A DNA stretch of 64,000 bases from NCBI GenBank assembly GCA_030427905.1, contig JAUICL010000003.1:496001-560000 (forward strand). Direction: 5' to 3'. The position numbers were made by a program, and so were the translations under genes. Shown in pieces: positions 36,067 to 59,563 of the stretch; the stretch's first letter is position 1, and every line of letters starts with the position of its first letter. The notes under the pieces were generated by a model. It searched no databases and had not been told where the DNA came from. It saw only the letters and a list, made by a program, of their open reading frames with translations. Origin of the DNA: Bacteroidia bacterium (GTDB taxonomy: Bacteria; Bacteroidota; Bacteroidia; Flavobacteriales_D; Cryomorphaceae).

Positions 36067-36199
36067 TCTGGTTTTTTGCTCCTTTACTTTTATGTAGGGG
36101 CTTGGCTCTGAGTTGTGTATTTAATTTGTCGTACTTTAGATTTTTGATGAAATGAACTCAGTGGCATTTGAAAATCCGCTTACTTTAATCTCCATTCCC

Positions 36200-38434
36200 A
36201 TGAGAAAAATCCTGGCCTTTCTACTCCTATTTCCTATCTATGGTTACGCTCAATTTGAAGTTGTACCTACGGTGGTAATTCCCGCCCATTACGCGGATGG
36301 CTCAGCAATTAAAAACCCCTGGACTGGAGGACTTAATGCCGCACAGATATCCATGTTTGACGCAGACATGGATGGAAATGAAGACGACATCTTTGTTTTT
36401 GACAAGGCTGGAAACCGCGTACTGGTGTACATAGGAACCACATCTGGCGGGCAGCGCACATACAAATACCACCCCAAACTGAGCAAGCAGTTTCCACCCA
36501 TTACCGACTGGGCGCTACTGCGGGATTTTGATTGTGATGGCAAGCGAGATATTTTCACCTACAGCCCAGCAGGCGGAGCTTTTGCGGTGTACCGAAACAC
36601 CACATCCAGCCCAGATCAACTTTCTTTTGAGTTGGACACCGAAGTGATTGAAAGTTTTTACGAGTTTAATAGTACCCAGTTTACTACAAACATCTATGTC
36701 TCTTCCCAAGACGTTCCCGCCATTTTCGACTTCGATGATGATGGAGATCTCGACATATTAACATTTGCCGTAGGAGGTGGTTTTGTTGAGCTACACCTAA
36801 ACTACAGCATAGAAAATGAAGGGGTTTGTGGATTGGACTTTGCGCTAAAGAACAAATGCTACGGTCGATTTATGGAAGGGTCTGAAAACAATGGGATTAT
36901 TCAAGACCCGGATATTATTGCAAGCACGTGTAACTTCAACGTAGTAGACCCTAAAAGAAACGGCGGCGGAGGCGCACGCCACGTCGGATCAACGATTCTC
37001 GCTTTTGATGCCAACCAAGACGATCTGGCAGAGATCATTCTAGGTGATGTGACTTACTTCAACATGACCTATCTCGAAAACAATGATCGAGGCGACCAAG
37101 TGGACAGTGTTGGGTATGTATCCACCACATTTCCTTCCGACTTCGGCACCATCCAAGTCGATATTGACAATTTTCCAGCTGGGTTCTACGAAGACATTAA
37201 CGGCGACGGTGTAAATGATCTCATCGTTGGGGTCAACAACCACAATGTAGCAGAGAACAAGAATTCGATTTGGCTATACCACAATGAAGGGTTGAACAAT
37301 CTACCCGAATTCGAGTTTCAAAAAGACAACTTTTTACAAGACGAAACAATTGATGCAGGAAGTGGATCAGCTCCTGCATTGTTCGATTACAATCAAGATG
37401 GTTTAATCGATATCGTCTTCGGATCAAGAGGTGAATTTCTCGGACAGGGAAGCTACCTACCTACCCTGACAGTTCTAATGAACGAAGGTAGTGCCGAAGA
37501 ACCTAGCTTCAAGTTAATTGACGACAATTGGCTTGATATTGGTAATCTAGGGGTAGAACAGTACGTTCACCCGCACTTTGCAGACCTCGACAACGACGGA
37601 GACGAAGACATGATTCTTGGTGATGCGTCTGGTGTGGTGCACTATTTTCGAAATGACGCGGCTCCAGGTGAAAATGCAAACATGACATTGATCGGTCTTC
37701 TTCAAACTGATGGCGAAGGGATCGATGTAGGGCAGAACAGCGCCCCTACCTTATACGATCTGAATGGCGATGGCTTGCTTGATTTGACAGTAGGCGAGCG
37801 CAATGGAAACCTAAACTACTTCGAAAACGTTGGGACTGCGGAAGAATACGCCTTCAATCTTGTAACTGACACCTTGGGTGGTCTCTCTGGCGTTGCTCAA
37901 AACTACTTTGTAGGAAATTCGGGGCCACAGTTTTTCGAACACGAGGGGGAAACCTTCTTAGCAACCGGAAATGAAAACGGAAAAATCTTTACCTATACCA
38001 ATATTTCAGCGAGCCCTGACGCTGAGTTTGAACTATACAGCAACTATGCCTTTGATATTAATGGTGGGAAACGAGTTAAAGCGGTAATCACCGATATCGA
38101 TGGAGACAACCTACCCGATGTTATTGTTGGACATGTAGGTGGTGGCTTAGAAATGTATGTGGGCGACTTGGCCTCATCGACACTTGATAGAGTCGAAAAA
38201 TCCAAAACACTAGAATTATACCCAAACCCAGGAGCGACAGAGATTCGGATAGCTAATATATTGCAGATCGAATCGAACTCACCGTATCGAATTTTCAGCA
38301 TCTCGGGTAATGTGGTTCAAAGCGGATTAACGACTAGTGGAGTGATTGATGTAACCCAACTTTCTAGTGGGATCTACATTGTGGAGGTCGTATCGGGCAG
38401 GGAAGTATACCGTGGGAAATGGGTCAAAAAATAA
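36200..38434 (+). CDS. FG-GAP/VCBS repeat protein with type A T9SS sorting domain
   Basis: A 744-residue secreted protein. The signal peptide is MRKILAFLLLFPIYGYAQ. A seven-bladed-propeller-like body with at least eight calcium-binding loops follows (DADMDGNEDD, DFDCDGKRD, DFDDDGDLD, DINGDGVND, DYNQDGLID, DLDNDGDED, DLNGDGLLD, DIDGDNLPD). The last ~75 residues are a type A T9SS tail (LELYPNPGATEIRI ... SSGIYIVEVVSG). The ATG at 36200 begins the signal peptide. An in-frame ATG at 36152 would add 16 residues. It is probably surface-attached or released. The ligand is unknown. Confidence 0.9.
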   Translation: MRKILAFLLLFPIYGYAQFEVVPTVVIPAHYADGSAIKNPWTGGLNAAQISMFDADMDGNEDDIFVFDKAGNRVLVYIGTTSGGQRTYKYHPKLSKQFPPITDWALLRDFDCDGKRDIFTYSPAGGAFAVYRNTTSSPDQLSFELDTEVIESFYEFNSTQFTTNIYVSSQDVPAIFDFDDDGDLDILTFAVGGGFVELHLNYSIENEGVCGLDFALKNKCYGRFMEGSENNGIIQDPDIIASTCNFNVVDPKRNGGGGARHVGSTILAFDANQDDLAEIILGDVTYFNMTYLENNDRGDQVDSVGYVSTTFPSDFGTIQVDIDNFPAGFYEDINGDGVNDLIVGVNNHNVAENKNSIWLYHNEGLNNLPEFEFQKDNFLQDETIDAGSGSAPALFDYNQDGLIDIVFGSRGEFLGQGSYLPTLTVLMNEGSAEEPSFKLIDDNWLDIGNLGVEQYVHPHFADLDNDGDEDMILGDASGVVHYFRNDAAPGENANMTLIGLLQTDGEGIDVGQNSAPTLYDLNGDGLLDLTVGERNGNLNYFENVGTAEEYAFNLVTDTLGGLSGVAQNYFVGNSGPQFFEHEGETFLATGNENGKIFTYTNISASPDAEFELYSNYAFDINGGKRVKAVITDIDGDNLPDVIVGHVGGGLEMYVGDLASSTLDRVEKSKTLELYPNPGATEIRIANILQIESNSPYRIFSISGNVVQSGLTTSGVIDVTQLSSGIYIVEVVSGREVYRGKWVKK

Positions 38435-39652: not shown

Positions 39653-39744
39653 GCTCCGACAAAAGGAGTTTTAACCCAAAAAGAAAGTAGAGATGTTCCT
39701 ATCTATTTGAAATAGAATGGCAACCTCTACCCAGCAATGCCGTC

Positions 39745-40356
39745 TTGACAGTGTTAAGTGCAAAGGACATTGGAGATAATCAGCTTAACAAGCTGATTGA
39801 AGGGTGTTTACAAAACCATCGAAAAAGCCAAGAAGCAATCTACAAGATGTTTTACGGAAAAATGATGGCTGTCTGTAGACGCTATACCCGGAATGATGAC
39901 CAGGCAAAAGACATTTTGCAGGACGCATTTATCAAGGTTTTCAATAATATCGATCGATTCAATTTCGATGGATCTTTTGAAGGCTGGGTGCGTCGGATTG
40001 TCGTGAATACGGGAATCGACTTTACCAGGAAGGCTAAAAACGATTACCTTCTAATGAACGAAAACCAATCGGTCGAAGATTTTGAAAACGATCTATTGGA
40101 TGTAGAAGAAGAAGATTTTAACATCCCACTGAATGTTGGGGATGTCATTAAAGGAATGGACCAACTTTCAAACGCGTACAAGGCTGTATTTAACCTTTAC
40201 GTATTTGAAAATTATTCTCATCAGGAAATAGCCGACGCCTTGGGCATTAGTGTAGGTACAAGTAAATCGAACCTAGCCAAGGCAAGAGCAAACCTGAAGA
40301 AAATATTAAAGAAAGTAATAGAACAAAAAGATGGCGAAGGATCTAGACAAGTTTGA
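39745..40356 (+). CDS. RNA polymerase sigma factor, ECF subfamily
   Basis: A 203-residue ECF sigma factor. Region 2 covers about residues 25-95 (AIYKMFYGKMMAVCRRYTR, DQAKDILQDAFIKVFNN, GSFEGWVRRIVVNTGIDF). An acidic linker (ENDLLDVEEEDF) follows, then region 4 with its helix-turn-helix (YSHQEIADALGISVGTSKSN). No ATG is available upstream in frame: the start is TTG at 39745 or GTG at 39751. The gene overlaps the next by 26 bases. That partner is a membrane protein with an outside PKD domain, the normal position for an anti-sigma factor. The target promoters are unknown. Confidence 0.9.
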   Translation: MTVLSAKDIGDNQLNKLIEGCLQNHRKSQEAIYKMFYGKMMAVCRRYTRNDDQAKDILQDAFIKVFNNIDRFNFDGSFEGWVRRIVVNTGIDFTRKAKNDYLLMNENQSVEDFENDLLDVEEEDFNIPLNVGDVIKGMDQLSNAYKAVFNLYVFENYSHQEIADALGISVGTSKSNLAKARANLKKILKKVIEQKDGEGSRQV

Positions 40357-41626
40357 TGAGTTGTTGAAAGGTGCACTCGATGGGCACGAAGCCCCATTTA
40401 ATGAGATGCATTGGGAAGAACTTGAAGAAGAATTGAATGTTGTGGCACCTGGAATGTCGAGTTATTTCAGTGCCGTAACTACAGGACTTGTCGCTACAAG
40501 CTTGGTCTTTATGTCCATGCTTTTCCTCCTTTCTGATGGAAATGGAGTTCACACCAATGATGATGTTGATGAAGTAGTAGTTGCTGAAAATGCAGGCGGT
40601 ACACCTAAGCATTTATCTAATGAGCAAACTGCTGCATTTGATTCCATTTATTCAGAATCTATTGACAACGAAACGAGTACGACTGAAGACGAAAGTGGTT
40701 TGAACTCGACTATCGAAAACCAAGAAGCGTCTACCTCAACTGAATCAACGTCGGAAACTACAAACACTAGCTCAGCTAGTACCAACGCTTCAATTACAGA
40801 CAAATCGAACAATTCTGACACAAATTCGGAATTGAACTCGAATAATGATGAGAATGAGTCTGTTGTGGTGGCGAGCAGTGTGAAAGCTGAAACGAAAAAC
40901 ATTCGCACGGGCTGCACTGGACTGACCATCGATTTTACAGCTAAGGAAGAGTATGGAAACAATGCCAAATTCCTTTGGAATTTTGGTGATGGTTACTTCA
41001 GTACAGAGTCAAATCCGTCTCACACTTTTAACAAGGAAGGAACATTTGATGTATCGCTTTCTGTAACATCTCCTGGTTCTGGACAGATCACTTCGAATGT
41101 GGTACAAGCCATGATCGAAATCGTGGAAGCTCCGATTGCGAACGTCGATGTTGAAATCAACGGCCCACACACCGTTTCCATTTTCAACAAGAGCTACAAC
41201 GCCAATGATGTAGAGTGGAGAATAGACGGAGCTACAGAAGGAAATGGATCATCGGTAAGCGTGAGTGTTGCTGACAACACCAGCTACGAAGTACACCTCT
41301 CAGCTCTCAATGAAGGTGGATGTGTTGACACCTTAGAGTCAACAATTCGAAGCATCCAAGCTGGGTCTGAATTCCCTAGAGCGTATGACACATCTTACGG
41401 AAATGCTTTTGCTCCTGGAGCGATCATTGACGAAGGCGAAGTGCAAAGCATCAAAATATACAGCAACAAAACTGGTGACCTCGTATTTGAAGGATCTGGT
41501 AACAAAGGCTGGAGTGGCGAAACCCCACAAGGCGAAAAAGCAAGTAAAGGAGCTTATAAGTGGGTAATGGCTGTCGTTAAGAATGACGTGATAGATGTTT
41601 ACCACGGCGACTTGGAAGTCAGGTAA
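40331..41626 (+). CDS. Single-pass membrane protein with PKD domain and T9SS type B-like C-terminus; putative anti-sigma factor
   Basis: 431 residues. The N-terminal 44 are cytoplasmic, acidic and helical (DLDKFDELLKGALDGHEAPF, MHWEELEEELN), the kind of segment that binds a sigma factor. There is one membrane span at about residues 45-67, then a Ser/Thr/Asn-rich linker (about 105-180). A PKD domain lies at about 192-275 (FLWNFGDGYFSTESNPSHTF). Residues about 355-431 align with the gliding-motility/type B sorting module (SIKIYSNKTGDLVFEG, NKGWSGE, KASKGAYKWVMAVV, GDLEVR). It has no signal peptide. The 26-base overlap with the sigma gene supports a regulatory pair. The anti-sigma role is inferred, not shown by a known family. 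Confidence 0.7.
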   Translation: MAKDLDKFDELLKGALDGHEAPFNEMHWEELEEELNVVAPGMSSYFSAVTTGLVATSLVFMSMLFLLSDGNGVHTNDDVDEVVVAENAGGTPKHLSNEQTAAFDSIYSESIDNETSTTEDESGLNSTIENQEASTSTESTSETTNTSSASTNASITDKSNNSDTNSELNSNNDENESVVVASSVKAETKNIRTGCTGLTIDFTAKEEYGNNAKFLWNFGDGYFSTESNPSHTFNKEGTFDVSLSVTSPGSGQITSNVVQAMIEIVEAPIANVDVEINGPHTVSIFNKSYNANDVEWRIDGATEGNGSSVSVSVADNTSYEVHLSALNEGGCVDTLESTIRSIQAGSEFPRAYDTSYGNAFAPGAIIDEGEVQSIKIYSNKTGDLVFEGSGNKGWSGETPQGEKASKGAYKWVMAVVKNDVIDVYHGDLEVR

Positions 41627-41646: not shown

Positions 41647-41676
41647 TAAAAAGCATCCTGTATCGGATGCTTTTTT
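41647..41676 (+). terminator. Intrinsic terminator after the sigma/PKD operon
   Basis: AGCATCC (41652-41658) pairs with GGATGCT (41665-41671) and is followed by six T. It ends the two-gene sigma operon and separates it from the giant gene. Confidence 0.88.
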
Positions 41677-41983: not shown

Positions 41984-44900
41984 ATGAACCGACAGCTGTT
42001 TAAGGTATCTTTTTATTTTGCCGTATTCGCTTTTTTGACCTTCATTCCTCACAATGTACTTTCTCAAGTGCCTGATGACGCAGATTTGTGCGGAGATTCG
42101 AACACTGCTACCGTTGAACTAGTATCTATATCTCCGGCTCCAGCTGCGGATGGCTCCTTTCCCGATGGAACCGTAATTGAAGTATGCTATAATTTCATCT
42201 ACGACAACCCCGGGAATGCGCAGTTCGTTCATGGTATTGTTCTAGACTTGCCTGACGCAATCGACCCTTCATCTATCTCTGAAATGAGTCCCCTTCTCAA
42301 TTGCACTGGAGCAAATGGTTCGTGGGATTGGTATGATTCAGTAACAAGTACCGGGTCGGGGGATACTTACGGTCCAGGTTGGTTTTTTGACGGAGCCCAA
42401 AGTCAGGATGGAAACCCTGGAAATAACTGGGGTGAAGCCTGTAGCGGCGTCACTTTTGGCCCCCTCTGCTTTGAGATGGAATTGAGCTGTGGTACTGGAT
42501 TAGTGGATGGTTCAGTTATTATGCCAGCAGTCTACTTCTTAGGTGATGGTGACTCTGGGAGTTGGGGGATCCCATCTCCGTGTATCCCTTATGCTGAGGC
42601 TACGGAAGCAGGAACAGAGGTTGCCTACACTGTAAATTGTTGTGATGCAGAGCCCGGAATTCCACCGAGTGATCCTGTTCAAATTTGTGAAAATGGAGAT
42701 ATCTGTCTTTTTGACCTTTTGACACCCATTGATGCTATGACTCCAGTTCAAGATGATGGTTTTTGGCTTGGGCCTTCTGGATGGACTTGGGATGGTGATC
42801 CAACTTGTGCTAATTTTGACCCGACAACTGACCCAGCTGGTGATTACTCATACAGTGTTACGGGAAGTGATGGGTGTTTAGAATCCGTTATCATTACCTT
42901 GGAATACACTGTAGATCCAATTGTTGGTTCTGTCGCATATTGTGGTGGCGGAATATTCAACCTATTTTCAGAAATCTGTGTTCCAGAAGGACTACCGGTC
43001 ACTGGAACGTGGTACTATCCTGGCCCAGGAGGATATCCAGATATGGGAGCGGAAGTGATATTGGGTAATGTAGATTCCGATTCAGATGTTGGCGGGGAAT
43101 ATGTTTATCAATATTATGACTCGAACAACTGCTTTACCACAACAGGTGTAAACCTAATTTTCTCGACTGGGGGTGTTGCTGGATGTGAAACTTTTGTCGA
43201 TGTCTGCTATACAGATGGAGATTTTTGCCCTTTCGATGTACTGGGTTGTAACCCAGAACCGGGTGGACAGTGGATTGTATGGGATGCTTCTGGTGGATTT
43301 GTTGATTATTATCCAACTACTGCCGGCTGTGCCACGCAAGCTGAATTACAAGACTGGTTTGATAATGGCGATGGACCGATGAGATTCGAGTATACCCTCG
43401 GGGCATTTCCTTGTAGTCCAGCCTTTACTGATGTACACGTCACCATTCACGAACCAGTAAATACTGGAGTCTTTACTTCTCAAAACATCTGTGTAACTGA
43501 TCCACCAGTACTACTTGAGACTTTGCTTGATGACGGTGGCTCCCCTCTTACCCCAGGTCTAAACTGGGATGATTTTACAACCCCTAGCTCTGGAATTCCA
43601 CTTACCAATCCACTTGACCCTAGTGTATATCCCCCAAATACAACCCTTCAGCTGCAATATAGTGGCGGGCTCGCGGGAACGTCTTGTGAAAGTGCTACGC
43701 TTTTATCTTTAACTATTCTCCCTGCTAATGCGGATGCAGGAGCAGATGCGACAGTAGATGTTTGTTCAAATGGTGCTTCTATAGATATGTTTCCCCTTTT
43801 AGGGCCTAATGCTCAAACTGGTGGTGTGTGGACAGGACCTGCTCCTTTTACTGGAGGTAGCTTTTTCAATCCAGCTCTTCACGGTTCAGGAGTTTATACC
43901 TACACCATTACCACAACTTGCGATACTGATTTTGCAACGGTTACAGTTAATGAACTTACCCCTCCTGATGCTGGTTTCAATAATTTCGGAACGGCATGCG
44001 ACGCGGATGGGGTGATCTCGCATACGGATCTGACTGCCATGCTTGGTGGTACACCGATGGCGGGAGGAACTTGGACCGATCAGGCCACGGGTACGCCTAT
44101 CCCCGACCCGCTCGATATTTCTGGGGCTTGTGGAACCATGACAAACTACGAGTACACTGTCGATGATGGAAACTGTACAAACTCTTCAGTTCTTATTCTC
44201 ACCGTAGACTGTGGAGGAAACGCTGGACCAGACGTAACAATCGATCTTTGCGAAGACCCTGCTCTAAACGTCAATTTAGTGCCAGACCCTACAGCTAATG
44301 CTGGTGGTAGCTTTAGCAACAACAACTTCCAACAGATACCTGCTAACTCGGGGGTCTACACGTACACCGTTAATGGTACTGGTGTTTGTCCCGACGATGT
44401 AGCTGACTACACCGTTAATATTGACCCGGAGATAACTTATACAGTCAATGCGACTTGTGAGCCGAATCAAACAGAGTTCATCGTTGACATAGATGTGCTT
44501 ACAGGTGGGTATATTGAGATCATTGACAATACGAACGGTCTGGCAACGCAGCCAGCACAGCCAGGAGTCCACAGTTTTGGACCGATATCCGCCGGCTCGA
44601 ACTACTCGTTTACCATCGTAAGTGATGGGTCTTGCCCAGATGTTGTTGTCTCAGGAGCATCGCCTGCTTGTTTCTGCCCTGTTACAGCTGATATCACATC
44701 AACAAATACAACGATCTGTGAAGGCGCTTGTACCAACATCAGCATTGCCTTAGCAGGAGGCACCCCCCCTTATAGCATTACATACGATGACGGATCAGGC
44801 CCACAAACAGTAAACAATATTTTCACATCGCCTTACCTACTCAATGTATGCCCAACAGCAAACACAACATATACATTGACAGATGTATCGGATGCAAACT

Positions 44901-47900
44901 GTGTGGGTGTTGCAAATGGAGCTGTTACTATTTCCGTTGAAACGGCACCTAATGCAGGACCTGATGGTACCTTAGACTATTGCGCTGATGGAACAATTGT
45001 TAACCTACCTGCCCCACCCCCACCTGCGGAAGCGGGGAACTGGTCGCCATCTGGGAATATCACTGCCGATGTCGCAAATAGTGGAACCTACCAATATATT
45101 GTAACGGGAGTTGCTTGTCCAAACGATGTTTCTGATTGGGTTGTGACTTTCGAACCAGAAATCACATACACTGCTAATGCGGCATGTGAGCCCAACCAAA
45201 CAGAGTTTATGGTTGACATAGATGTACTTACAGGTGGGTATATTGAGATCATTGACAATACGAACGGTCTGGCGTCGCAGCCCGCACAGCCAGGAGTTCA
45301 CAGTTTTGGACCGATACCGGCTGGTACGAACTATTCGTTTACGATTGTAAGTGATGGGTCTTGTCCCGATGTCGTTGTCACTGGAGCTTCTCCTGTATGT
45401 TCATGTCCTGCCACAGCAGACTTCAACTCGCCAAACGCAACGATTTGTGAAGGTGACTGCTACGATATCGAAGTGGTACTAGGTGGTGGACTTCCGCCAT
45501 ACTCGTTTACTTATGATGACGGATCAGGGCCGCAAACGGTTAACGGTATTTTCGCTGCCACATACACACTACAAGTTTGCCCAATAGCAAATACGACATA
45601 TACACTTACGGATATGTCTGATGCCAACTGTATTGGTACAGCAAACGGTTCAGTAACCGTTCAGATCGAAACAGCTCCTAATGCTGGGCCAGACGGAACC
45701 CTTGACTATTGTGCCGACGGTGCCCTTGTAAACCTTCCTGCTCCCCCTCCACCTGCTGATGGAGGTGGTACTTGGTCACCATCTGGAACTGTCACCGCAG
45801 ATGTTGCTAATAGTGGTACATACCAATATACGGTTGCTGGTACAGCGTGTCCAGATGCAATTTCTGACTGGGTTGTGACTTTCGAACCAGAAATCACATA
45901 CACAGCAAATGCCACATGTGAGCCCAACCAAACAGAGTTTATAGTTGACATAGATGTCCTTACAGGTGGGTATATTGAGATCATTGACAATACGAACGGT
46001 CTGGCATCGCAGCCCGCACAGCCAGGAGTTCACAGTTTTGGACCGATACCGGCTGGTACGAATTATTCGTTTACGATTGTAAGTGATGGGTCTTGTCCGG
46101 ATGTCGTTGTTACTGGAGTTTCTCCTGTTTGTTCATGTCCTGCCACAGCAGACTTCAACTCGCCAAACGCAACGATTTGTGAAGGTGATTGCTACGATAT
46201 TGAAGTATTACTAGGTGGTGGACTTCCACCATACTCGTTTACATACGATGATGGAACAGGTCCACAAACAGTTAACGGTATTTTTGCTGCGACATACACA
46301 CTTCAAGTGTGCCCAACAGCAAATACGGCATATACACTTACGGATATGTCTGATGCCAACTGTATTGGTACAGCAAATGGTTCGGTAACCGTGCAAATAG
46401 AACTAGCTCCCGATGCTGGACCGGATGTTACAGTGCCAGCTATCTGTGGTGATGGAACAGTGCATAACCCTGATGATTATCTTTTCACTGGAGTTCCAAC
46501 TGACGGAACATGGAGTACTGATCCGATAAATGCTACTCCTGCCAACTCGGCTGTTTACACCTATACACGTACTGGAACAGAATGTCCTGCAGATGTAGCA
46601 AATTACACCTTCACTTTTGACCCTCAGATCACATACAACGTGTTAAGCGTGGCCTGTGAGCCGAGCCAAACGGAATATTTAGTCCAGATCGAGGTTCTTT
46701 CTGGAGTAGGGCCATATACCGTTACAACTCCACAAGTAGGAGCAAGCGTAACTGATTTAGGTGGAAACATTTTTGAAGTCGGACCAATACCGGCAGGAAC
46801 TGGTTATAACATCGATATTTCAGATGATGGTGGAACCTGTCCGGCGGTCAATGCTTCAGGTGCTTCACCAAACTGTAACTGTTCTACAGAAGCGACTTTT
46901 ACAACTACAAACACTACGATATGTGAAGGTGATTGTATCAACTTGGAAGGTGATCTAGTGGGTATGCCGCCTTTTACGGTTGTGATCAACGATGGGACTT
47001 CTAATATTACTATCAACTCAGCTACAAACACGTTCTCATACAATGTTTGCCCAACAGCCAATACAACTTATACGATGGTATCGGCAGAAGACGCAAACTG
47101 TGTCGGATCGGCCTTTGGTTCGGTGACGATATCTGTTGACCCAATTGTGAATGCCGGGCCTGCCAACGTGATCGTACCAGATATCTGTGGTGATGGAACA
47201 ACAGTGATACTCAATACACTTCTCGACCCAACTGCAGAGACTAACGGATCTTGGACTGATCCACTTGGCACCCCACTCTCTTCTGTTCAGGCTTTGTCTG
47301 CTAACTCGGGTATCTATACGTACACTATCAATGGTGGAGCTTGTCCGGATGCTGTTGCAACGTACAACATCACGTTTACGGATGATTTGACAGTTACTGC
47401 AACATCAGCCACATGTGAACCCAACCAGACTGAATACAATGTGACTTTTGTAGTCAATGGTGGTTCAGGAAACTATACGATTACAGACAATATGAATGGA
47501 GCTGCTCCAGTAGTTGGGACAGGCTCAGGTTTTACATTTCAAACCGCTGTACCGATTGATATAGCCAATGCCTACAACTTTACGGTTTCCGATGGACTTT
47601 GTGCAGATGTCACAGTAAGTGGAATTGCTCCGAACTGTAACTGTCCAGCAACGGCTAGTTTTGTTACGACGAATACGACGATCTGTGAAACAGATTGTAT
47701 CGACCTTGAGCTTTCATTCCAAGGTGATACGCCGTATACTTTTGAGTATACCGATGGAACATCAACTTTCCCTCCTATCGTAAGTCCTGCAGCGACATAC
47801 CTATTGAATGTATGCCCTTCTACAACGACTACGTACTCTCTGGTATCAGTTGAAGACAATAACTGTGTAGGTTCTGCATTTGGATCAGTAACTGTTACTG

Positions 47901-50900
47901 TCGATGGTGTGAATGAAGCGGGGAACCCAGTCTCAATCACCGAATGTGGAGACGGGTCAAACCTTGCTCTCAACGGTATCCTTGATGCATCAGCGGATGT
48001 TGGTGGAACATGGACCGATCCAGATGGAGCGACGGTAACTTCAGTTCAAGCTTTGCCAGCTAACTCTGGAATTTATACCTACACCGTTTCAGGTGGAGCC
48101 TGCCCAGATGATCAAGCGTTCTACACAATTACATTTGATCCAGAAATTGAAATAGGAACCATCACGGCGGTGTGTGAGCCAAACCAAGAAGAATACACGG
48201 TGGAATTCGAAATTATTGATGGAGTGCCAGGGTACTCGGTAACGGGCAACACGATGACACCTCCGATTGGAAACACCAACGTTTCTTTTCCTCCATATAC
48301 ATTCAACTCAGGTGTAATCGACTTTGATACGAACCCTACCTATTCATTTGAAATAGCAGACAATGGTGCTTGTGGAAACCTACAAGTTGGACCCACCGTC
48401 GCACCTGATTGCAACTGTATTGCCCAAGGATCGATCACTGGCTCTACTACGATCTGTGAAAGTGAGTGTACAGAGATTCAGTTCAACTTGATCGGTGAAT
48501 CACCATTTAATGTAGTCTATGAAGACAGCAATGGGAACCAGTTCCCATTGAATGGAATATTAAACGGTCACCAGTTATCTGTTTGTCCAGCTGCTGATGA
48601 AACTTATACTTTGGTTTCAGTTGAAGACAACTACTGTGAAGGAACTGTAACAGGAACACCGGTAACTATCGGAGTTGATGACCAGCTCTCGGTTTCTTTG
48701 GTTAACTACACGCCAAGTTTCGACAACGAGTCTTACCAGGTTGTGCTTTCAATCACTGGTGGGGACCCAAGTACATACAACTTCTCACCAGCAGGTGGAA
48801 TTTTCAATTCGGCAACTCAAACTTATACAAGCTTCAATATTCCATGTGGTCAGACTTCGTCTATCACAATTGGTGATGCAGGAGTTTGTGACGATGTGGT
48901 ATTTGATGCCAACTACGTTTGTCAATGCGTTTCTGACGCCGGGTCGATTGGCAACGCGCCTCAAACACTCTGCTCTACAGAAACACTCACCGTTACACAC
49001 TTCGGTGATGAAGTGATGGATGGAAATGACGTATTAGAATTCATTCTTCACACAGGTACCGACGGAAGTTTGGGTGCGATAATCGATCGCTCTTCTACAG
49101 GAGTGTTTGACTTGTCATCTTACTCCCTGACACCAGGTACAACGTACTGTGTGATGGCTGCCGTAGGGGACAACGACTTTACTGGTAGCGTGAATCTTGA
49201 TGATGAATGTACCAGTTTGTCTAGCTGCTTGCTTCTGACTGTAGTGGCTCCGCCAACCGCTTCTATTTCTGGAGGCGCGGCTGTATGTCCGGGTGAAACG
49301 GTTGACATTACTATTGTGTTTACAGGAACCCCACCTTATAACTTCACTTATTCTGATGGGACTAATCCAATAAACGCTACAGCTAATGCCAATAGCTACA
49401 CCATTACTACAAGTACACCTGGAACGTATTCTTTGGTATCTGTTGATGATACCTACTGCTCAGGAACAGTAAGTGGGTCGGCGGTAGTGACCAATTACGC
49501 AGTTCCATCGGCTACAATGAGTGGTAACCCCAACGTATGTGAAAACAGTGGTGACGGACCTATTGTCAGCTTTACAGGAGATGGACCATGGACCTTCTCT
49601 TACACCATAGATGGTGGAGAGCCAGATACCATTACGAGCAATTCTCCCTCTGTTGTGATACCAGCAGAAGTGGGTGGCCTATACGCGCTACTGGCATTGG
49701 AAGGAGCATATTGTACAGGTGAAGTGAGTGGTAGTCTATTAGTAGACCTACATCCACAACCAACAGCGTCCATTACTGGTGGAGGTGAAGTTTGTGATGG
49801 CGACGAAGCTGTTTTTGTCGTTCAATCAACAGGTACAGGACCATGGCAAGTACTCTACACAGTAGATGGTGTGGTTCAATCTCCACAGATTATCACGGAT
49901 CCTTACCACACATTCAACTCTGGAGAAAGTGGAGAGTACATTATTACATCGGTTACTGATGCTAATTGTTCTGGAATTGTGGTGGCAGGCGATGCTTCGC
50001 TGATTGTAAATCCAATTCCAAATGCGAGCATTATGTCAGACGTCTCTGCATTCTGTATCGGTCAAGAAGTGCAAGTGGATGTAGAACTTGAAGGTAACGC
50101 ACCATTTACACTGACCTATGTGTTAGATGGTGATACGATCACTCAAGAAGGAGTATCAGGAGGGTTGAGCAGAACATTGGCTCCAGAAGGGCCGGTGAAT
50201 GCTGAATTACTTTACATTGAAGATAGTTCTAACCCGACGTGTAGTGCTGATTTGAATGAAACACTATTCGTAGACGCTCAGACTCTACCTAATGCTCCTG
50301 TTTTGCTAGACGATTCACTTTGTCTCGCCAACGGCCCAATCCAAATTGGTGTGACAGCAGCTCCTGGCTTATCTTATGAGTGGATGCCAGAGGATCGTCT
50401 TTCGGATCCGAAAGTTCCAAATCCAATCTTCACCCCTGGTGCAATTGGACCTGTAACCAAAGAATTCACTTATGTGATAACAGCCACCGATGGAGAGTGT
50501 TCAGCTTCAGATACGATGACTGTCACAGTAGATCCAGGACCTACAGCCAGATTCTCATGGACACCTGACCCTGTACTTTCGGAAGATACGGAAGTGTTCT
50601 TCCAGAACAATACAATCGGTTATGACAACATGATTTACTTCTGGGAGTTTGACACTCTTGGAACATCGGAAGCCGAGAATCCAAGCTTCAAGTTTCCTGA
50701 TGGCGTGAATGATGACTATCTCATTAGCCTGACGGCCATAGACCTGAACACGGGATGTATGGATGATGCAACGGAACTTCTAACCGTAGAACCAGATCTA
50801 TTAATGTACGTTCCAAATGCGTTTACGCCAGATGAAGATGGCCTGAATGACCTTTGGGGACCAGTGATGAAGAATATCGATCCCGATGACTATCGACTTA

Positions 50901-51085
50901 CAGTAATGGATCGATTTGGGCAGATCATTTTCGAAACTAGAGACCCAGACCAGAAGTGGAATGGTAGCATTAATGGTGGTGATCACTACGCAAGTCCAGA
51001 CCTTTATATCTGGCTGATAGAAACCAAGAATATCCTAACATTAGATGAAGTTGAATTCAATGGAAAAGTTCAATTGATCAGATAA
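41984..51085 (+). CDS. Giant repeat adhesin with T9SS type B (gliding-motility-associated) C-terminus
   Basis: 3033 residues: signal peptide (about 1-27, ending VLSQ) and an N-terminal Cys-bearing domain (30-235) I do not recognise. A long array of Ig/SprB-like beta modules follows. Six tandem units of about 243-252 residues (from about 817) are built on CEPNQTEFIVDIDVLTGGY and PPYSFTYDDGSGPQTVN. A PKD-like domain lies near 2845-2935 (MIYFWEFDTLGTSEAENPSF). The last ~95 residues are the type B sorting module (LMYVPNAFTPDEDGLNDLWG ... FNGKVQLIR). It is a likely surface adhesin of the SprB kind, exported by T9SS and anchored or polymerised outside. The ligand is unknown. It is followed by a strong terminator. 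Confidence 0.88.
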   Translation: MNRQLFKVSFYFAVFAFLTFIPHNVLSQVPDDADLCGDSNTATVELVSISPAPAADGSFPDGTVIEVCYNFIYDNPGNAQFVHGIVLDLPDAIDPSSISEMSPLLNCTGANGSWDWYDSVTSTGSGDTYGPGWFFDGAQSQDGNPGNNWGEACSGVTFGPLCFEMELSCGTGLVDGSVIMPAVYFLGDGDSGSWGIPSPCIPYAEATEAGTEVAYTVNCCDAEPGIPPSDPVQICENGDICLFDLLTPIDAMTPVQDDGFWLGPSGWTWDGDPTCANFDPTTDPAGDYSYSVTGSDGCLESVIITLEYTVDPIVGSVAYCGGGIFNLFSEICVPEGLPVTGTWYYPGPGGYPDMGAEVILGNVDSDSDVGGEYVYQYYDSNNCFTTTGVNLIFSTGGVAGCETFVDVCYTDGDFCPFDVLGCNPEPGGQWIVWDASGGFVDYYPTTAGCATQAELQDWFDNGDGPMRFEYTLGAFPCSPAFTDVHVTIHEPVNTGVFTSQNICVTDPPVLLETLLDDGGSPLTPGLNWDDFTTPSSGIPLTNPLDPSVYPPNTTLQLQYSGGLAGTSCESATLLSLTILPANADAGADATVDVCSNGASIDMFPLLGPNAQTGGVWTGPAPFTGGSFFNPALHGSGVYTYTITTTCDTDFATVTVNELTPPDAGFNNFGTACDADGVISHTDLTAMLGGTPMAGGTWTDQATGTPIPDPLDISGACGTMTNYEYTVDDGNCTNSSVLILTVDCGGNAGPDVTIDLCEDPALNVNLVPDPTANAGGSFSNNNFQQIPANSGVYTYTVNGTGVCPDDVADYTVNIDPEITYTVNATCEPNQTEFIVDIDVLTGGYIEIIDNTNGLATQPAQPGVHSFGPISAGSNYSFTIVSDGSCPDVVVSGASPACFCPVTADITSTNTTICEGACTNISIALAGGTPPYSITYDDGSGPQTVNNIFTSPYLLNVCPTANTTYTLTDVSDANCVGVANGAVTISVETAPNAGPDGTLDYCADGTIVNLPAPPPPAEAGNWSPSGNITADVANSGTYQYIVTGVACPNDVSDWVVTFEPEITYTANAACEPNQTEFMVDIDVLTGGYIEIIDNTNGLASQPAQPGVHSFGPIPAGTNYSFTIVSDGSCPDVVVTGASPVCSCPATADFNSPNATICEGDCYDIEVVLGGGLPPYSFTYDDGSGPQTVNGIFAATYTLQVCPIANTTYTLTDMSDANCIGTANGSVTVQIETAPNAGPDGTLDYCADGALVNLPAPPPPADGGGTWSPSGTVTADVANSGTYQYTVAGTACPDAISDWVVTFEPEITYTANATCEPNQTEFIVDIDVLTGGYIEIIDNTNGLASQPAQPGVHSFGPIPAGTNYSFTIVSDGSCPDVVVTGVSPVCSCPATADFNSPNATICEGDCYDIEVLLGGGLPPYSFTYDDGTGPQTVNGIFAATYTLQVCPTANTAYTLTDMSDANCIGTANGSVTVQIELAPDAGPDVTVPAICGDGTVHNPDDYLFTGVPTDGTWSTDPINATPANSAVYTYTRTGTECPADVANYTFTFDPQITYNVLSVACEPSQTEYLVQIEVLSGVGPYTVTTPQVGASVTDLGGNIFEVGPIPAGTGYNIDISDDGGTCPAVNASGASPNCNCSTEATFTTTNTTICEGDCINLEGDLVGMPPFTVVINDGTSNITINSATNTFSYNVCPTANTTYTMVSAEDANCVGSAFGSVTISVDPIVNAGPANVIVPDICGDGTTVILNTLLDPTAETNGSWTDPLGTPLSSVQALSANSGIYTYTINGGACPDAVATYNITFTDDLTVTATSATCEPNQTEYNVTFVVNGGSGNYTITDNMNGAAPVVGTGSGFTFQTAVPIDIANAYNFTVSDGLCADVTVSGIAPNCNCPATASFVTTNTTICETDCIDLELSFQGDTPYTFEYTDGTSTFPPIVSPAATYLLNVCPSTTTTYSLVSVEDNNCVGSAFGSVTVTVDGVNEAGNPVSITECGDGSNLALNGILDASADVGGTWTDPDGATVTSVQALPANSGIYTYTVSGGACPDDQAFYTITFDPEIEIGTITAVCEPNQEEYTVEFEIIDGVPGYSVTGNTMTPPIGNTNVSFPPYTFNSGVIDFDTNPTYSFEIADNGACGNLQVGPTVAPDCNCIAQGSITGSTTICESECTEIQFNLIGESPFNVVYEDSNGNQFPLNGILNGHQLSVCPAADETYTLVSVEDNYCEGTVTGTPVTIGVDDQLSVSLVNYTPSFDNESYQVVLSITGGDPSTYNFSPAGGIFNSATQTYTSFNIPCGQTSSITIGDAGVCDDVVFDANYVCQCVSDAGSIGNAPQTLCSTETLTVTHFGDEVMDGNDVLEFILHTGTDGSLGAIIDRSSTGVFDLSSYSLTPGTTYCVMAAVGDNDFTGSVNLDDECTSLSSCLLLTVVAPPTASISGGAAVCPGETVDITIVFTGTPPYNFTYSDGTNPINATANANSYTITTSTPGTYSLVSVDDTYCSGTVSGSAVVTNYAVPSATMSGNPNVCENSGDGPIVSFTGDGPWTFSYTIDGGEPDTITSNSPSVVIPAEVGGLYALLALEGAYCTGEVSGSLLVDLHPQPTASITGGGEVCDGDEAVFVVQSTGTGPWQVLYTVDGVVQSPQIITDPYHTFNSGESGEYIITSVTDANCSGIVVAGDASLIVNPIPNASIMSDVSAFCIGQEVQVDVELEGNAPFTLTYVLDGDTITQEGVSGGLSRTLAPEGPVNAELLYIEDSSNPTCSADLNETLFVDAQTLPNAPVLLDDSLCLANGPIQIGVTAAPGLSYEWMPEDRLSDPKVPNPIFTPGAIGPVTKEFTYVITATDGECSASDTMTVTVDPGPTARFSWTPDPVLSEDTEVFFQNNTIGYDNMIYFWEFDTLGTSEAENPSFKFPDGVNDDYLISLTAIDLNTGCMDDATELLTVEPDLLMYVPNAFTPDEDGLNDLWGPVMKNIDPDDYRLTVMDRFGQIIFETRDPDQKWNGSINGGDHYASPDLYIWLIETKNILTLDEVEFNGKVQLIR
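44432..45160 (+). repeat. Adhesin repeat unit A (729 bp)
   Basis: The first of six tandem in-frame units, 243 codons. It opens with ITYTVNATCEPNQTEF. It differs from units B and C at many silent and several amino acid sites, mostly in its second half. Confidence 0.85.
45161..45892 (+). repeat. Adhesin repeat unit B (732 bp)
   Basis: 244 codons opening ITYTANAACEPNQTEF. It is nearly identical in DNA to unit C over long stretches, including silent positions, which points to recent duplication or homogenisation. Confidence 0.88.
45893..46627 (+). repeat. Adhesin repeat unit C (735 bp)
   Basis: 245 codons opening ITYTANATCEPNQTEF. The first two thirds nearly duplicate unit B. From about 46410 it diverges (ELAPDAGPDVTVPAICGDGT), marking one edge of the homogenised block. 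Confidence 0.88.
46628..48850 (+). repeat. Adhesin repeat units D-F (degenerate)
   Basis: Three further units of about 750 bases begin near 46628 (ITYNVLSVACEPSQTEY), 47386 (LTVTATSATCEPNQTEY) and 48145 (IEIGTITAVCEPNQEEY). They keep the CEPxQxEY and TNTTICExDC landmarks but differ strongly in DNA, so they are older copies. The end of F is approximate. Confidence 0.7.
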
Positions 51086-51159: not shown

Positions 51160-54100
51160 ATGAAACAGCTACTCGCACTAGTCCTCGCACTAGTGAGCTT
51201 ATCAGCGTTTGCACAACAAACAGACATCTCCTTTAACCCAGGCAACAACGGCCAGACATTCAATACCTGCAACGGGTTTGTTATTGATTCTGGAGGACAA
51301 GGTGGAACTGGGTATGGCGACAACGAGTTTTTTACCATCACTATTTGCCCTGATACCATCACGACAGGTGATAACAGTCTGTACATCACCACCACGTTTA
51401 ACCTATTTGATCTGGATGGGACAAATCTTGGTACTCAGCAAAATCCAGACATGGATTACATGGCAGTTTACGATGGAACCAGCACCGCTGCATCTACCTT
51501 AGGAACATACAATACCGACGAACTCCAAAATGTTTCGATCGCGGCCACTACAAATAACGGTTCTGGATGTTTGACTTTTGTATTCTACTCAAATGCGCAA
51601 GGTAGTGGACAGTTTACAGCAAGTGCTACTTGTACCCAACCTTGTGTACCACCAACAGCCAGTGCATTTATAGTTGATGCCCCTGCACCCGATTCAATTG
51701 CCGTTTGTGTTGGTGAACTGGTTACGTTCGATGGGTCTGCATCAGTAGCTGGTGATGGATTTGCTATCACGGAGTATTCATGGAACTTCATCGATGGAAC
51801 AATTGATAATACCAGCGGCGCAATAGTTTCGCACGCATTCGAAAATACAGGATACTACGATGTTCAGCTCACCTTGACGGACAATAACACCGATAATGTG
51901 TGCAACAACCTTAACGTTGTGCCTCTAAAAGTTTTTGTTTCCAACTACCCCACCTATTACCAGTTTCCAGATGATATGACCATTTGTACTGGTGAAGAAG
52001 TTGATCTGATTGGTATCATGCCTGGCCCAGATGGGTTTGGGCAATACGATAGTACTTGGACCGGATTTCCAGGCAGTAACTCCGTAGATGATGGATGTCT
52101 CCCTGATACACTTCTTGGAATTTCGCAGTCTATTCCGATTACTTACACAGAATTTGATCCTTCAGCAACCCTACAAGATGTAGACGACCTTGTAGACATT
52201 TGCCTGAACATGGAGCACTCTTTCATGGGTGACCTCGTTATCCAATTAAGTTGTCCTGATGGAACCACAATAAATCTTCAAACCCAAGGTGGTGGTGGAA
52301 CTCAAATTGGAGTTCCAGATCAAGCTGACAATGTAGACTGTGAAAACCAAACTGGAATTGGGGAAGGGTGGACCTACTGCTGGGACAATGACGCAACAGA
52401 AACATGGACAGAATGGGTCAATGGTGCCGGTGGCTTCGGAAATACATTACCTGAAGGAACATATGCCTCAGCAGATCCACTTTCTGATTTAATTGGGTGC
52501 CCCTTACAAGGTACTTGGCAGATTACGGTAATTGATAACTGGGCAGCAGATGACGGAACTATCTTCGAATTCGGTGTTACGTTCGATCCTTCATTCTACC
52601 CAGACATCATCGAGTTTACCAATACCATTGGCGAAGATGCCGACTCTTCTTATTGGGATTTGAGCGACCCTTGGATCACAGATAATACCGACGACTTAAA
52701 CCAGATTACGATTCAGACTGATCAAGTCGGTACGTATGAATACAACTACTACGTTATAAACAATTTTGGATGTGATTTTGATAGTACCGTAACTGTCAAT
52801 GTAATTGAAGGGCCTGAAATTACGGCAGGCCCCGATATGACGGTTTGTGAAGACCCCGTTATTCTTCAAGGAGCCATTGTCGGTGGGCCTGTTCCTACTT
52901 GCGGTGGAGATGCGGGTACCTACAATTATTGCTACGACAATAATGATCAGCTCATTGTGACATACTGTCCAGACAACCCGGGTGATGGAATAACCCTTAT
53001 GCAAATCGAATTTGTAGCTGGTCAAATGGACATGTGGGGTGACTGGATAACCATCTACGATGGAGATAGTCAGTTTTCTCCTTGGTTAGCTGGACCAAAC
53101 ACGGACAATATGGCCGGAATGGTATTCACCGCTACTGAGAACAATGCAACTGGCTGCTTGACATTTGTATTGAATAGTGACGGTGTAAATAGTTGTGGTG
53201 ATGGAACATTTGAAGAGTGGATAGTCAACGCTACATGTGTTGCTGCTGATGATGGAATGGTATGGGAATGGTCTCCAGCTACTGGATTATCCGACCCTAA
53301 TGTGCAGACTCCGAGCTCACTGGTTGACCAAGCCACACAATACACTCTGACGGCTTACCCAGTTGGTTTTCCTGGCTGTGCCCAAACAGATCAAGTGCTA
53401 ATCGCTCCTGATGCTGAAGCCGATCCTGGTCTGGACACCGACTCTATTTTATGCTACAATTCACCTATCAGTTTTCTGATCGACTATTTAGATGGAAACC
53501 CAGCTCCTGGCGGAGTGTGGACGGATGAAAATGGTGATGTAGTACCTAATCAGTTCAACCCAACCGCCTTTCCAAATGGTACATCATTCACTTATACCTA
53601 TACCGTAGGAAACGGAACTTGTGAAGGGCAATCGGAACTGAATATGACTGTTTTGGATGCCTTGAACGCTAATTGCTGTCAAACCAACGCAGTGGCGGGC
53701 GATGATGCCTATCCTTGTGCCCTGAGCTATCAACTGCAAGCTGAGCCTGCAATCGGACTCGGAACTTGGACAGGACCAGAAGGCGTTTTCTTTAGTGATA
53801 CGCACGATCCGAATGCCATAGTCTCTATGGAATCTCCCGGTGGCGTTGTGGTGTTAACATGGACGGACGACAATGGATTCCTTTGTTCGGAATCTGACCA
53901 GATTGAAGTAACATTTTCTGACCCTGTATCGCTTCTCGTAGTTCCGGAAGATGCGCTTTGCTACAATCAAGCAAGCGGAACCGCTATCGGTGTTGCCAGT
54001 GGTGGAACGGTCACAAACGGACAGTACAACTACGATTGGGAAGAGAATGGTGTACCTGGAATCATTCCACAAACCAGAGACTCCATACCTGCAGGTACCT

Positions 54101-54951
54101 ACCAAGTAAAAGTTTGGGATAATGCCGGATGTATTGATTCGACTATCTATACGATTGGTGAACCTAATCCACAGGAAATGTTCATTACCCAATCGCCTCC
54201 ACGCTGTTTTGAAGAGTGCTCTGGGCGAATCGGAATCAGATCAGCTGGTGCAGTTGACTACAGCTTTGATGGTGGTAATACCTGGGTTGCTGATAGTGTT
54301 TACTTCACATGTGCTGGTGACTTTGACGTAATTGCGAGAAACGCCAATGGCTGTGAGATTACTCAACCCGTTAGCCTCGTAGACCCTCCTGAATTCGAAG
54401 CTGACTTCAACATCAACCCCATGCCAACGACGATTAAAAACACGCGAATAACGTTCCAAGATATTTCAAGTCCAGGACCAATTCACAGCTCTTACTTCGT
54501 CTTCGGTGATTACCCAGCTATTGGAGAAGCGCACGATCGAATTTCAGTATTCGAGTTTCCAAAAGACACAGCCGGAATCTATCCAGTTACACTCTTCTCG
54601 ACGAGTGTGAACGGATGTACAGACACAACCACCAAGGAAGTAATTATCCACGATGATTTGATCTGGTACATTCCAAATAGCTTCACACCTAACGAAGATG
54701 GAATCAATGATATCTGGAGACCTGTAGGAAATACCCTCGACATCCGAGACTATGAAGTGACCATTATGGATCGGTGGGGTAAAGAAGTTTTCCACACCAA
54801 AGATTATAACCAAGGTTGGAATGGTAGCTCCAATAAAAGCGAAGGAGAATACTACTTGCCAACTGGTGTTTACACCTATCTCATAAAGGTGTCATCAGCT
54901 ACCACCGAAGACAAACGAGAGATTACTGGCTTCATCACCTTAGTCAGATAA
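51160..54951 (+). CDS. CUB/PKD/P-domain protein with T9SS type B C-terminus (copy 1)
   Basis: 1263 residues: signal peptide (1-18, ending AFAQ) and CUB-like domain 1 (about 20-155, with YMAVYDGTSTAA and GSGCLTFVFYSN). A PKD domain is near 165-275 (EYSWNFIDGT). A proprotein-convertase P-domain-like sandwich spans about 327-477 (ICLNMEHSFMGDLVIQLSCP, GTWQITVIDNWAADDG). CUB-like domain 2 spans 583-692 (WITIYDGDSQFSPWL). Ig/SprB modules follow, then the type B tail from about 1166 (IWYIPNSFTPNEDGINDIW ... ITGFITLVR). No protease domain is present, so the P-like fold is probably a binding module. Its close paralogue lies 760 bases downstream. Confidence 0.85.
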   Translation: MKQLLALVLALVSLSAFAQQTDISFNPGNNGQTFNTCNGFVIDSGGQGGTGYGDNEFFTITICPDTITTGDNSLYITTTFNLFDLDGTNLGTQQNPDMDYMAVYDGTSTAASTLGTYNTDELQNVSIAATTNNGSGCLTFVFYSNAQGSGQFTASATCTQPCVPPTASAFIVDAPAPDSIAVCVGELVTFDGSASVAGDGFAITEYSWNFIDGTIDNTSGAIVSHAFENTGYYDVQLTLTDNNTDNVCNNLNVVPLKVFVSNYPTYYQFPDDMTICTGEEVDLIGIMPGPDGFGQYDSTWTGFPGSNSVDDGCLPDTLLGISQSIPITYTEFDPSATLQDVDDLVDICLNMEHSFMGDLVIQLSCPDGTTINLQTQGGGGTQIGVPDQADNVDCENQTGIGEGWTYCWDNDATETWTEWVNGAGGFGNTLPEGTYASADPLSDLIGCPLQGTWQITVIDNWAADDGTIFEFGVTFDPSFYPDIIEFTNTIGEDADSSYWDLSDPWITDNTDDLNQITIQTDQVGTYEYNYYVINNFGCDFDSTVTVNVIEGPEITAGPDMTVCEDPVILQGAIVGGPVPTCGGDAGTYNYCYDNNDQLIVTYCPDNPGDGITLMQIEFVAGQMDMWGDWITIYDGDSQFSPWLAGPNTDNMAGMVFTATENNATGCLTFVLNSDGVNSCGDGTFEEWIVNATCVAADDGMVWEWSPATGLSDPNVQTPSSLVDQATQYTLTAYPVGFPGCAQTDQVLIAPDAEADPGLDTDSILCYNSPISFLIDYLDGNPAPGGVWTDENGDVVPNQFNPTAFPNGTSFTYTYTVGNGTCEGQSELNMTVLDALNANCCQTNAVAGDDAYPCALSYQLQAEPAIGLGTWTGPEGVFFSDTHDPNAIVSMESPGGVVVLTWTDDNGFLCSESDQIEVTFSDPVSLLVVPEDALCYNQASGTAIGVASGGTVTNGQYNYDWEENGVPGIIPQTRDSIPAGTYQVKVWDNAGCIDSTIYTIGEPNPQEMFITQSPPRCFEECSGRIGIRSAGAVDYSFDGGNTWVADSVYFTCAGDFDVIARNANGCEITQPVSLVDPPEFEADFNINPMPTTIKNTRITFQDISSPGPIHSSYFVFGDYPAIGEAHDRISVFEFPKDTAGIYPVTLFSTSVNGCTDTTTKEVIIHDDLIWYIPNSFTPNEDGINDIWRPVGNTLDIRDYEVTIMDRWGKEVFHTKDYNQGWNGSSNKSEGEYYLPTGVYTYLIKVSSATTEDKREITGFITLVR

Positions 54952-59520: not shown

Positions 59521-59563
59521 AAGCCCTAGCAAATGACTATTTTCGCTCAAAACCTATCGGGAT

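Follow-up and report, generated by a model that had tools for sequence, protein, structure and literature searches.

The window examined here, a stretch of 64,000 nucleotides (nt) from a 3.8-Mb genome of the Cryomorphaceae (Flavobacteriales_D; contig JAUICL010000003.1, positions 496,001 to 560,000), contains the gene for an extracytoplasmic function (ECF) sigma factor and, overlapping with it, the gene for a membrane protein that ends in a module resembling the type B sorting domains of the type IX secretion system (T9SS). The two genes almost certainly encode a sigma factor and its anti-sigma factor. With somewhat more than even confidence, the pair is read here as a switch of the Dma kind (dual membrane-spanning anti-sigma factor) that would monitor T9SS or outer-membrane delivery by means of a C-terminal pseudo-cargo and would use small RNAs as an output. 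In all counts given below, “the order” and “the family” are those of the window genome; L-numbers designate fetched loci and f-numbers families of the order.

The gene pair and its conservation

An original prediction, made from the letters of the window, had placed an ECF sigma factor open reading frame (ORF) and a partner ORF at positions 39745-41626 with an overlap of 26 bases. Both ORFs were found there, and the overlap covers positions 40331-40356. The features of the locus are as follows.

39719..39744, + strand: predicted autoregulatory ECF promoter, with GGCAACC at 39719-39725, 15 nt, and CGTC at 39741-39744
39751..40356, + strand: ECF sigma factor gene with the likely start GTG 39751 (ORF listed from TTG 39745)
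40331..41626, + strand: predicted Dma-like transmembrane anti-sigma factor of 431 amino acids (aa) with a T9SS type-B-like C-terminal module, assigned by Pfam, AlphaFold, and adjacency to the sigma gene
41648..41675, + strand: predicted intrinsic terminator after both genes, a hairpin followed by a T run

The sigma protein matched Sigma70_r2 (6e-14) and r4_2 (2e-13) of Pfam, both above the cut-off, and region 3 was not among the listed Pfam matches, which is the domain content that defines an ECF sigma factor. The listed TTG start directly abuts the −10 element of the predicted promoter; GTG 39751, aligned by eye with an ATG in the Cryomorpha ignava genome, is the likelier start. The same locus of C. 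ignava, the nearest named one found, encodes a sigma factor with 76% identity.

The original prediction had proposed a search for the same pair in other genomes, and the pair is indeed present across the order. Residues 1-80 of the partner were found in all eight genomes of the family. Of 60 relatives, 37 had a match to the whole partner with an E value of 1e-15 or lower, some of these matches being other PKD proteins. When 37 distinct loci gathered by the homology searches were sorted by the length of the homologue, all 23 with a homologue of 400-500 aa had a homologous sigma gene directly upstream, and the remaining 14 encoded longer PKD proteins with no sigma gene upstream. This division indicates that the pairing goes beyond chance. 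With the sigma alignment as query and a threshold of E <= 1e-35, matches were obtained in 138 of the 150 genomes searched within the order; a group of paralogues scoring about 190-200 bits also passes this threshold.

Layout of the partner protein and likeness to Dma anti-sigma factors

An AlphaFold model of the partner was built on an alignment of 33 family members. An acidic helical end, one membrane span, a Ser/Thr linker, and a PKD domain had been described before, and this layout was recovered from charge, the AlphaFold model, composition, and Pfam. It can be divided into six parts.

40331..40465, + strand: predicted sigma-binding N-terminal part, residues 1-45, with two AlphaFold helices, 4-17 and 25-38
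40466..40528, + strand: single membrane span, residues 46-66, from an AlphaFold helix and the hydropathy of relatives
40538..40894, + strand: disordered tether rich in S, T, N, and E, residues 70-188 (119 residues), with a predicted local distance difference test score (pLDDT) below 50 and a matching composition
40895..41125, + strand: PKD domain, residues 189-265 (PKD_4, 7e-12, above the cut-off)
41126..41359, + strand: second immunoglobulin (Ig)/PKD-like domain, unannotated, residues 266-343, with strands at high pLDDT
41393..41623, + strand: type-B-like T9SS module at the C-terminus, residues 355-431, assigned by hhalign and CHU_C and degenerate in this family

The net charge of residues 1-45 is −9, and the hydropathy peak lies at about residue 45 in most of the relatives displayed. 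The AlphaFold model and hydropathy place an apparent internal span at residues 46-66 behind a charged helical N-terminus; T9SS type B cargo has a Sec signal peptide at its N-terminus. The tether is followed by three beta domains, mostly with a pLDDT above 90, the C-terminal one covering about residues 360-431.

Outside the order, the best matches of the sigma factor (up to 208 bits) adjoin partners that end in an outer-membrane barrel or are short. Among the barrel candidates, 16 of 20 matched outer-membrane barrel families of Pfam at E <= 0.01, and 8 of 20 exceeded the cut-off. Residues 1-75 of the window partner were compared by hhalign with the N-termini of 17 barrel-type partners, which yielded a probability of 98% and an E value of 1.6e-13; 20 column-shuffled controls of this comparison gave E values from 4.4e-4 to 0.76. 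Judged by this predicted layout, the pair is built like a Dma switch with PKD, Ig-like, and type-B-like modules in the place of the outer-membrane beta-barrel in which Dma proteins normally end. A Dma-kind N-terminus and a single span with a long tether are present; a C-terminal beta-barrel is absent. This likeness refers to the published layout and to the barrel-type partners found here.

Dma2, which acts with an ECF21 sigma factor, is a dual membrane-spanning anti-sigma factor with a four-part layout (PMC13088901). Shared with the window pair are the adjacent ECF and anti-sigma genes, the N-terminal sigma-binding part, the one span, the disordered tether, and an outer-membrane-type module in the last position (PMC13088901). 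The window system differs in having PKD, Ig-like, and type-B-like domains instead of the barrel, in its GGCAACC-N15-CGT promoter, and in its probable small-RNA output. The earlier wording “undescribed system” was too strong, since the kind, Dma with ECF21, has been published; the module-ended variant and its probable small-RNA output were not found in the open-access literature searched.

In a sigma tree of 89 rows, the window sigma factor lies among sigma factors that adjoin barrel-type partners. Module-ended partners occupy two separate parts of the tree, with barrel-ended and short ones elsewhere. The part that includes the window sigma factor (type 1) needs two changes, and the other (type 2) is one clade (91/88); the tree does not separate gains from losses of the module. 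A script sorted 189 sigma loci into 132 with a type-B-like module in the partner (7 of them type 2), 44 with another partner, 11 with a cut-off partner, and 2 without one, numbers that may include duplicates and that include at least one mis-sorted locus in the second group (L141, with a plain module on inspection). Three further pairs occur in the window genome: L286 is barrel-ended, L285 belongs to the type 2 module pairs, and L287 has a short partner. The type 2 module-ended partners (L285, the one in the window genome, L289, L293, L294, and L302-L304) exceeded the CHU_C cut-off in 7 of 7 cases.

The C-terminal module and type B sorting domains

The C-terminus had been aligned with type B sorting modules on the basis of four sequence elements. 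The window protein has three of them, namely VFx6GWxG, GxYxW, and the final VR; the SFTPN-like element is not intact there, and F[ST]P[ND] was found in 58 of 121 related modules. The proposed homology likewise stands at the level of the family and not for the window protein alone, which remained under the cut-off of CHU_C (19.1 bits with a cut-off of 27, E = 0.0014) and had no match to TIGR04131 at E <= 1. At E <= 0.01, 25 of the 33 aligned family members matched TIGR04131 and 27 of 33 CHU_C. A profile-profile comparison of 31 family modules with 12 cargo modules by hhalign resulted in a probability of 99.7% and an E value of 2.6e-27. From these profiles, homology of the module to type B sorting domains is nearly certain.

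A structure prediction of residues 355-431 had been suggested as a check. The search with the whole model was swamped by PKD domains (collagenase PKD, Z of about 9), so that the module was folded alone, with a mean pLDDT of 81. It resembled the type B modules of RemZ, PorZ, RemA, NucA, and PorU at Z of 6.0-7.1, or of 5.7-7.1 when mirolase is included, but unrelated Ig-like folds reached equal Z. The predicted structure agrees with a type B identity of the module without proving it.

The anti-sigma modules share with the type B sorting domains of TIGR04131 and CHU_C the profile homology, the extreme C-terminal place, and WxG, which was kept in 120 of 121 type 1 and in 6 of 7 type 2 modules. They differ in an apparent anchoring by an internal span and in one strand, in which all 12 cargo modules contain RWG or RFG, whereas none of the 121 type 1 and none of the 7 type 2 modules does (two regular-expression matches were located elsewhere). 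Secretion of a fusion to the SprB module required all five type B motifs (PMC12618676). One of these five is equated here with RWG by inference, the motif letters being absent from the text of that source. The loss of RWG in both lineages suggests a domain that docks without being released, that is, a tethered pseudo-cargo.

A further hint comes from locus L188, which has a sigma factor with 55% identity to the type 1 sigma factors and a strict promoter upstream. The partner beside it is the following.

L188 4554-6395: anti-sigma-like partner of 614 aa in which a span and a tether lie between four W..L repeats at the N-terminus and a PorP/SprF barrel at the C-terminus

The barrel matched PF11751 with 77.6 bits (cut-off 22.3). 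PorP/SprF proteins are shuttles of type B cargo (PMC12618676). A cargo module in one lineage and the shuttle of this cargo in another, at the same place of the protein, are the best computational hint of a type B readout. The barrel of L188 makes a T9SS reading slightly likelier and its rivals less so.

The promoter and its sites

The pattern GGCAACC-N15-CGT was found upstream of type 1 sigma genes at 101 of 129 loci in its strict form and at 125 in a relaxed form; the reversed pattern, used as a control at the same loci, was found 0 times and once, respectively. The strict promoter was present at 3 of 23 barrel-type, 0 of 7 type 2, and 4 of 17 short sigma loci. Among the first 23 loci, the −35 part was exactly GGCAACC in 21 and AGCAACC in 2. 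Genome-wide scans used the strict pattern including CGTC, with the relaxed pattern being reserved for sigma loci.

The window genome contains 5 strict sites, with 4 for the reversed control. They are positioned upstream of the sigma gene, a gene for a DUF5684 membrane protein, and two small-RNA-like units, and, in one case, inside an ORF of the opposite strand. Eight genomes together contain 41 strict sites, of which 31 were inspected. It is only conservation that lends support to these strict sites: the sigma gene recurred behind them in 8 of 8 genomes, the DUF5684 membrane protein in 7 of 8, and a YceI-type lipoprotein as neighbor in 3, and strict sites without an ORF were followed by a near-identical RNA-like sequence in 10 copies from 7 genomes.

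The DUF5684 membrane protein (L049 1586-2020, identified by Pfam) and its homologues carry the promoter in 7 of the 8 family genomes, and the leader AGGTTACAA precedes the gene in 5 of these 7.

Small RNAs behind the promoter

A small RNA is probably under the control of this sigma factor, as judged from the promoter preceding it. A covariance model of the RNA, built without the promoter, matched 79 of 150 genomes at E <= 0.01, distributed over f1 (8 of 8), f2 (2 of 2), f7 (3 of 4), and f9 (41 of 41), with weak matches elsewhere. The promoter, for which up to two substitutions were allowed, was at the right distance in 30 of the 30 top loci, 28 of them with an exact GGCAACC and 23 from genomes outside the model. 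In f9, 35 of the 36 genomes with a fetched match showed the core together with the promoter or a one-letter variant. Another 40 weaker matches could be divided into 18 without the core and 22 with a core-like string; of the latter, 14 had the strict promoter, 4 a one-letter variant, and 4 none. The small RNA thus follows the promoter in four families of the order.

By core and promoter, 51 copies of 56-98 nt were gathered, 45 with an exact GGCAACC. Common to these copies is a core near UGGUUUCAA..UUUUC.UUGCAGGUU; a 5' hairpin occurs in most of them and a terminator-like hairpin in all. A 5' stem of at least 5 pairs was present in 46 of 48 copies, compared to a mean of 40.2 (maximum 47) for re-paired halves and 31.6 (maximum 40) for shuffled letters; this count is weak by itself because re-paired halves come nearly as high. 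The mean stem length was 7.9, compared to 6.3 for re-paired halves. The terminator stem was present in 51 of 51 copies (re-paired mean 46.6, maximum 51), with a mean length of 11.7 compared to 7.9. When 29 small RNAs were aligned with MAFFT and a consensus structure was derived, the 5' hairpin was misaligned, and the resulting poor structure was discarded. Ten small-RNA loci had no match in Rfam at gathering thresholds. At 19 of 30 small-RNA loci, a gene from one and the same family, by eye that of OmpR-type response regulators, precedes the RNA at a distance of no more than about 120 nt.

The candidate small RNA of the window genome is located outside the window (L050 1531-1599, contig C5), with ECF promoter and terminator, and two nearby copies occur in several genomes. 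A second RNA-like unit, composed of a hairpin, AUGCUUAC or AUGCUAAC, and a terminator, follows the same promoter at four sites (L047, L053, L061, and L075), where the neighboring gene is YceI-type or, by eye, HlyD-like.

Proposed mechanism and alternative explanations

In the proposed switch, residues 1-45 of the partner would hold the sigma factor at the inner membrane, and the tether would allow the C-terminal module to reach the outer membrane. There, a PorP/SprF-like shuttle or the translocon would engage the module as a pseudo-cargo without releasing it. If T9SS engagement or delivery to the outer membrane went wrong, the sigma factor would be freed and would then transcribe its own operon and the gene for the DUF5684 membrane protein. 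It would also make small RNAs, those of the window's family and three other families, which would adjust envelope gene expression. In a comparable manner, sigmaE makes the small RNAs RybB and MicA that adjust envelope gene expression. Taken by itself, the step in which T9SS or outer-membrane delivery is sensed through the module has an even chance of being right. The broader statement can only be made tentatively: a class of anti-sigma factors that is widespread among Bacteroidota may use an export-defective, tethered pseudo-cargo, or a shuttle barrel in the case of L188, to monitor the type B shuttle or the translocon and may respond through an autoregulated sigma factor and a deeply conserved small RNA, the module having apparently been gained in two separate sigma lineages.

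Evaluation of this switch needs to consider a number of results that weigh against it. Within the window's own family the module has degenerated, and three genomes from another genus there retain it in a nearly unrecognizable form. Among the type 1 sigma factors of the tree, four (L153, L164, L183, and L193) have short partners that lack the module. SprA and type B modules were found in every one of the 17 genomes tested in which a strong sigma match is missing. Several of these are incomplete genomes, and the sigma factor of one, G013, may only have been missed, since this genome contains the small RNA and an anti-sigma-like match. In most of the 8 genomes scanned, strict promoter sites were not more common than those of the reversed control, and another sigma factor of equal promoter preference may use them. 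In f3 and f8, in which the pair is present, the small RNA was not found; the fetched matches of the small-RNA model showed no core combined with a promoter and were deemed spurious. No recurrent target at a start site was found by core complement (13-mer with one mismatch, 8 genomes, 30 loci inspected), and a duplex scan of 32 gene starts of the window reached a best z of −1.5. L188 is a single locus on a contig of a metagenome-assembled genome with a doubtful species label, its sigma factor groups, weakly, with barrel sigma factors, and a search of the order for relatives of its partner gave no match at E <= 1e-20 in any of 399 genomes, with none of these genomes known to contain one. Finally, the loss of RWG fits a domain without a T9SS role equally well.

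Co-occurrence with the T9SS was also considered as a test of the link and was set aside as not discriminating, the 17 genomes with no strong sigma match all being T9SS positive.

The last of the opposing points leads to an explanation that is unlikely but the most serious of the alternatives: the module may be a periplasmic Ig-like ligand-binding domain that was recruited from a common cargo fold and responds to another envelope signal without any tie to the T9SS. This would account for the degeneration of the module in the window's family, the missing RWG, the tie of the structure matches with unrelated Ig folds, and the failure of T9SS presence to predict the pair, all the more as every one of the five type B motifs was needed for secretion of the SprB-module fusion (PMC12618676). 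It would leave the conserved extreme C-terminal place, with WxG in 120 of 121 modules, the presence of the module in two separate sigma lineages, and the matching shuttle barrel of L188 without an obvious reason.

Alternatively, the protein may be a true dual-spanning one, with the N-terminus in the inner membrane and the module exported by the T9SS, so that PKD domain and module are displayed on the surface. The four-part layout equals that of Dma2 as far as it is described in PMC13088901, and the tether of 119 residues could, if extended, bridge the periplasm. Since all 12 cargo modules have RWG in a strand in which every anti-sigma module examined lacks it, and an internal span appears to take the place of the Sec signal peptide of cargo (PMC12618676), this possibility is improbable.

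Least probable is a SigP-like sensor that controls the genes for T9SS components, the version of the original prediction with its parallel to SigP/PorX: SigP of Porphyromonas gingivalis binds promoters of some T9SS genes (PMC4800418) and ECF-type promoters of Flavobacterium psychrophilum cover PorU and GldN (PMC9723704), but none of the 5 strict sites of the window genome leads into a recognized T9SS gene (31 of 41 sites in 8 genomes inspected), and GGCAACC/CGT does not resemble the motif that PMC4800418 reports for SigP.

Relation to other envelope responses

The nearest printed hint to the window system is the ECF-type promoter class SM6 of F. psychrophilum, which includes a sigma/anti-sigma pair, the small RNA Rfp11, PorU, and GldN (PMC9723704). 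As far as its description goes, SM6 has CGT in the −10 region and covers a sigma/anti-sigma pair and a small RNA, as does the promoter reported here, but it also covers T9SS genes (PMC9723704). In PorXY-SigP/PorA of P. gingivalis, a T9SS protein with a C-terminal domain, PorA, influences an ECF sigma factor (PMC7712824). That system uses a two-component system and a separate surface protein, and the passages available describe no anti-sigma factor for SigP; in contrast, the window pair joins a sensor module and a presumed anti-sigma factor in one protein.

A search of the open-access literature, with most subscription papers outside its scope, found no anti-sigma factor with a T9SS module, no such small RNA, and no sigmaE-like small-RNA response described in Bacteroidota. 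Enterobacteria possess SigmaE-RseA with RybB and MicA, an envelope anti-sigma factor whose sigma factor makes small RNAs, and the window pair resembles this system by analogy only. For the question of how Bacteroidota sense faults of the T9SS or of outer-membrane delivery, the system offers a candidate sensor, a sigma factor, a promoter, and two small-RNA families. If the reading as a Dma-like switch with a pseudo-cargo is true, the phylum would possess an envelope response of the sigmaE kind that is centered on its own secretion system. The exchange of a generic barrel, a cargo module, and a cargo-shuttle barrel at the same place in related proteins suggests a general design in which an anti-sigma factor includes, as one of its domains, a substrate or a component of the pathway that it watches.

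Neighborhood of the pair in the window

Three very large type B cargo proteins are encoded downstream of the pair (41984-51085, 51160-54951, and 55709-59464), the modules of the second and third being 85% identical. Three small ORFs near these genes were scanned for PorP/SprF, with 0 of 3 matching. A type A (TIGR04183) cargo protein is encoded upstream at 36152-38434, and a gene on the opposite strand, by eye malate dehydrogenase-like, lies between it and the pair. An lgt-like ORF at 59537-60385 reaches full length only without an ATG start.

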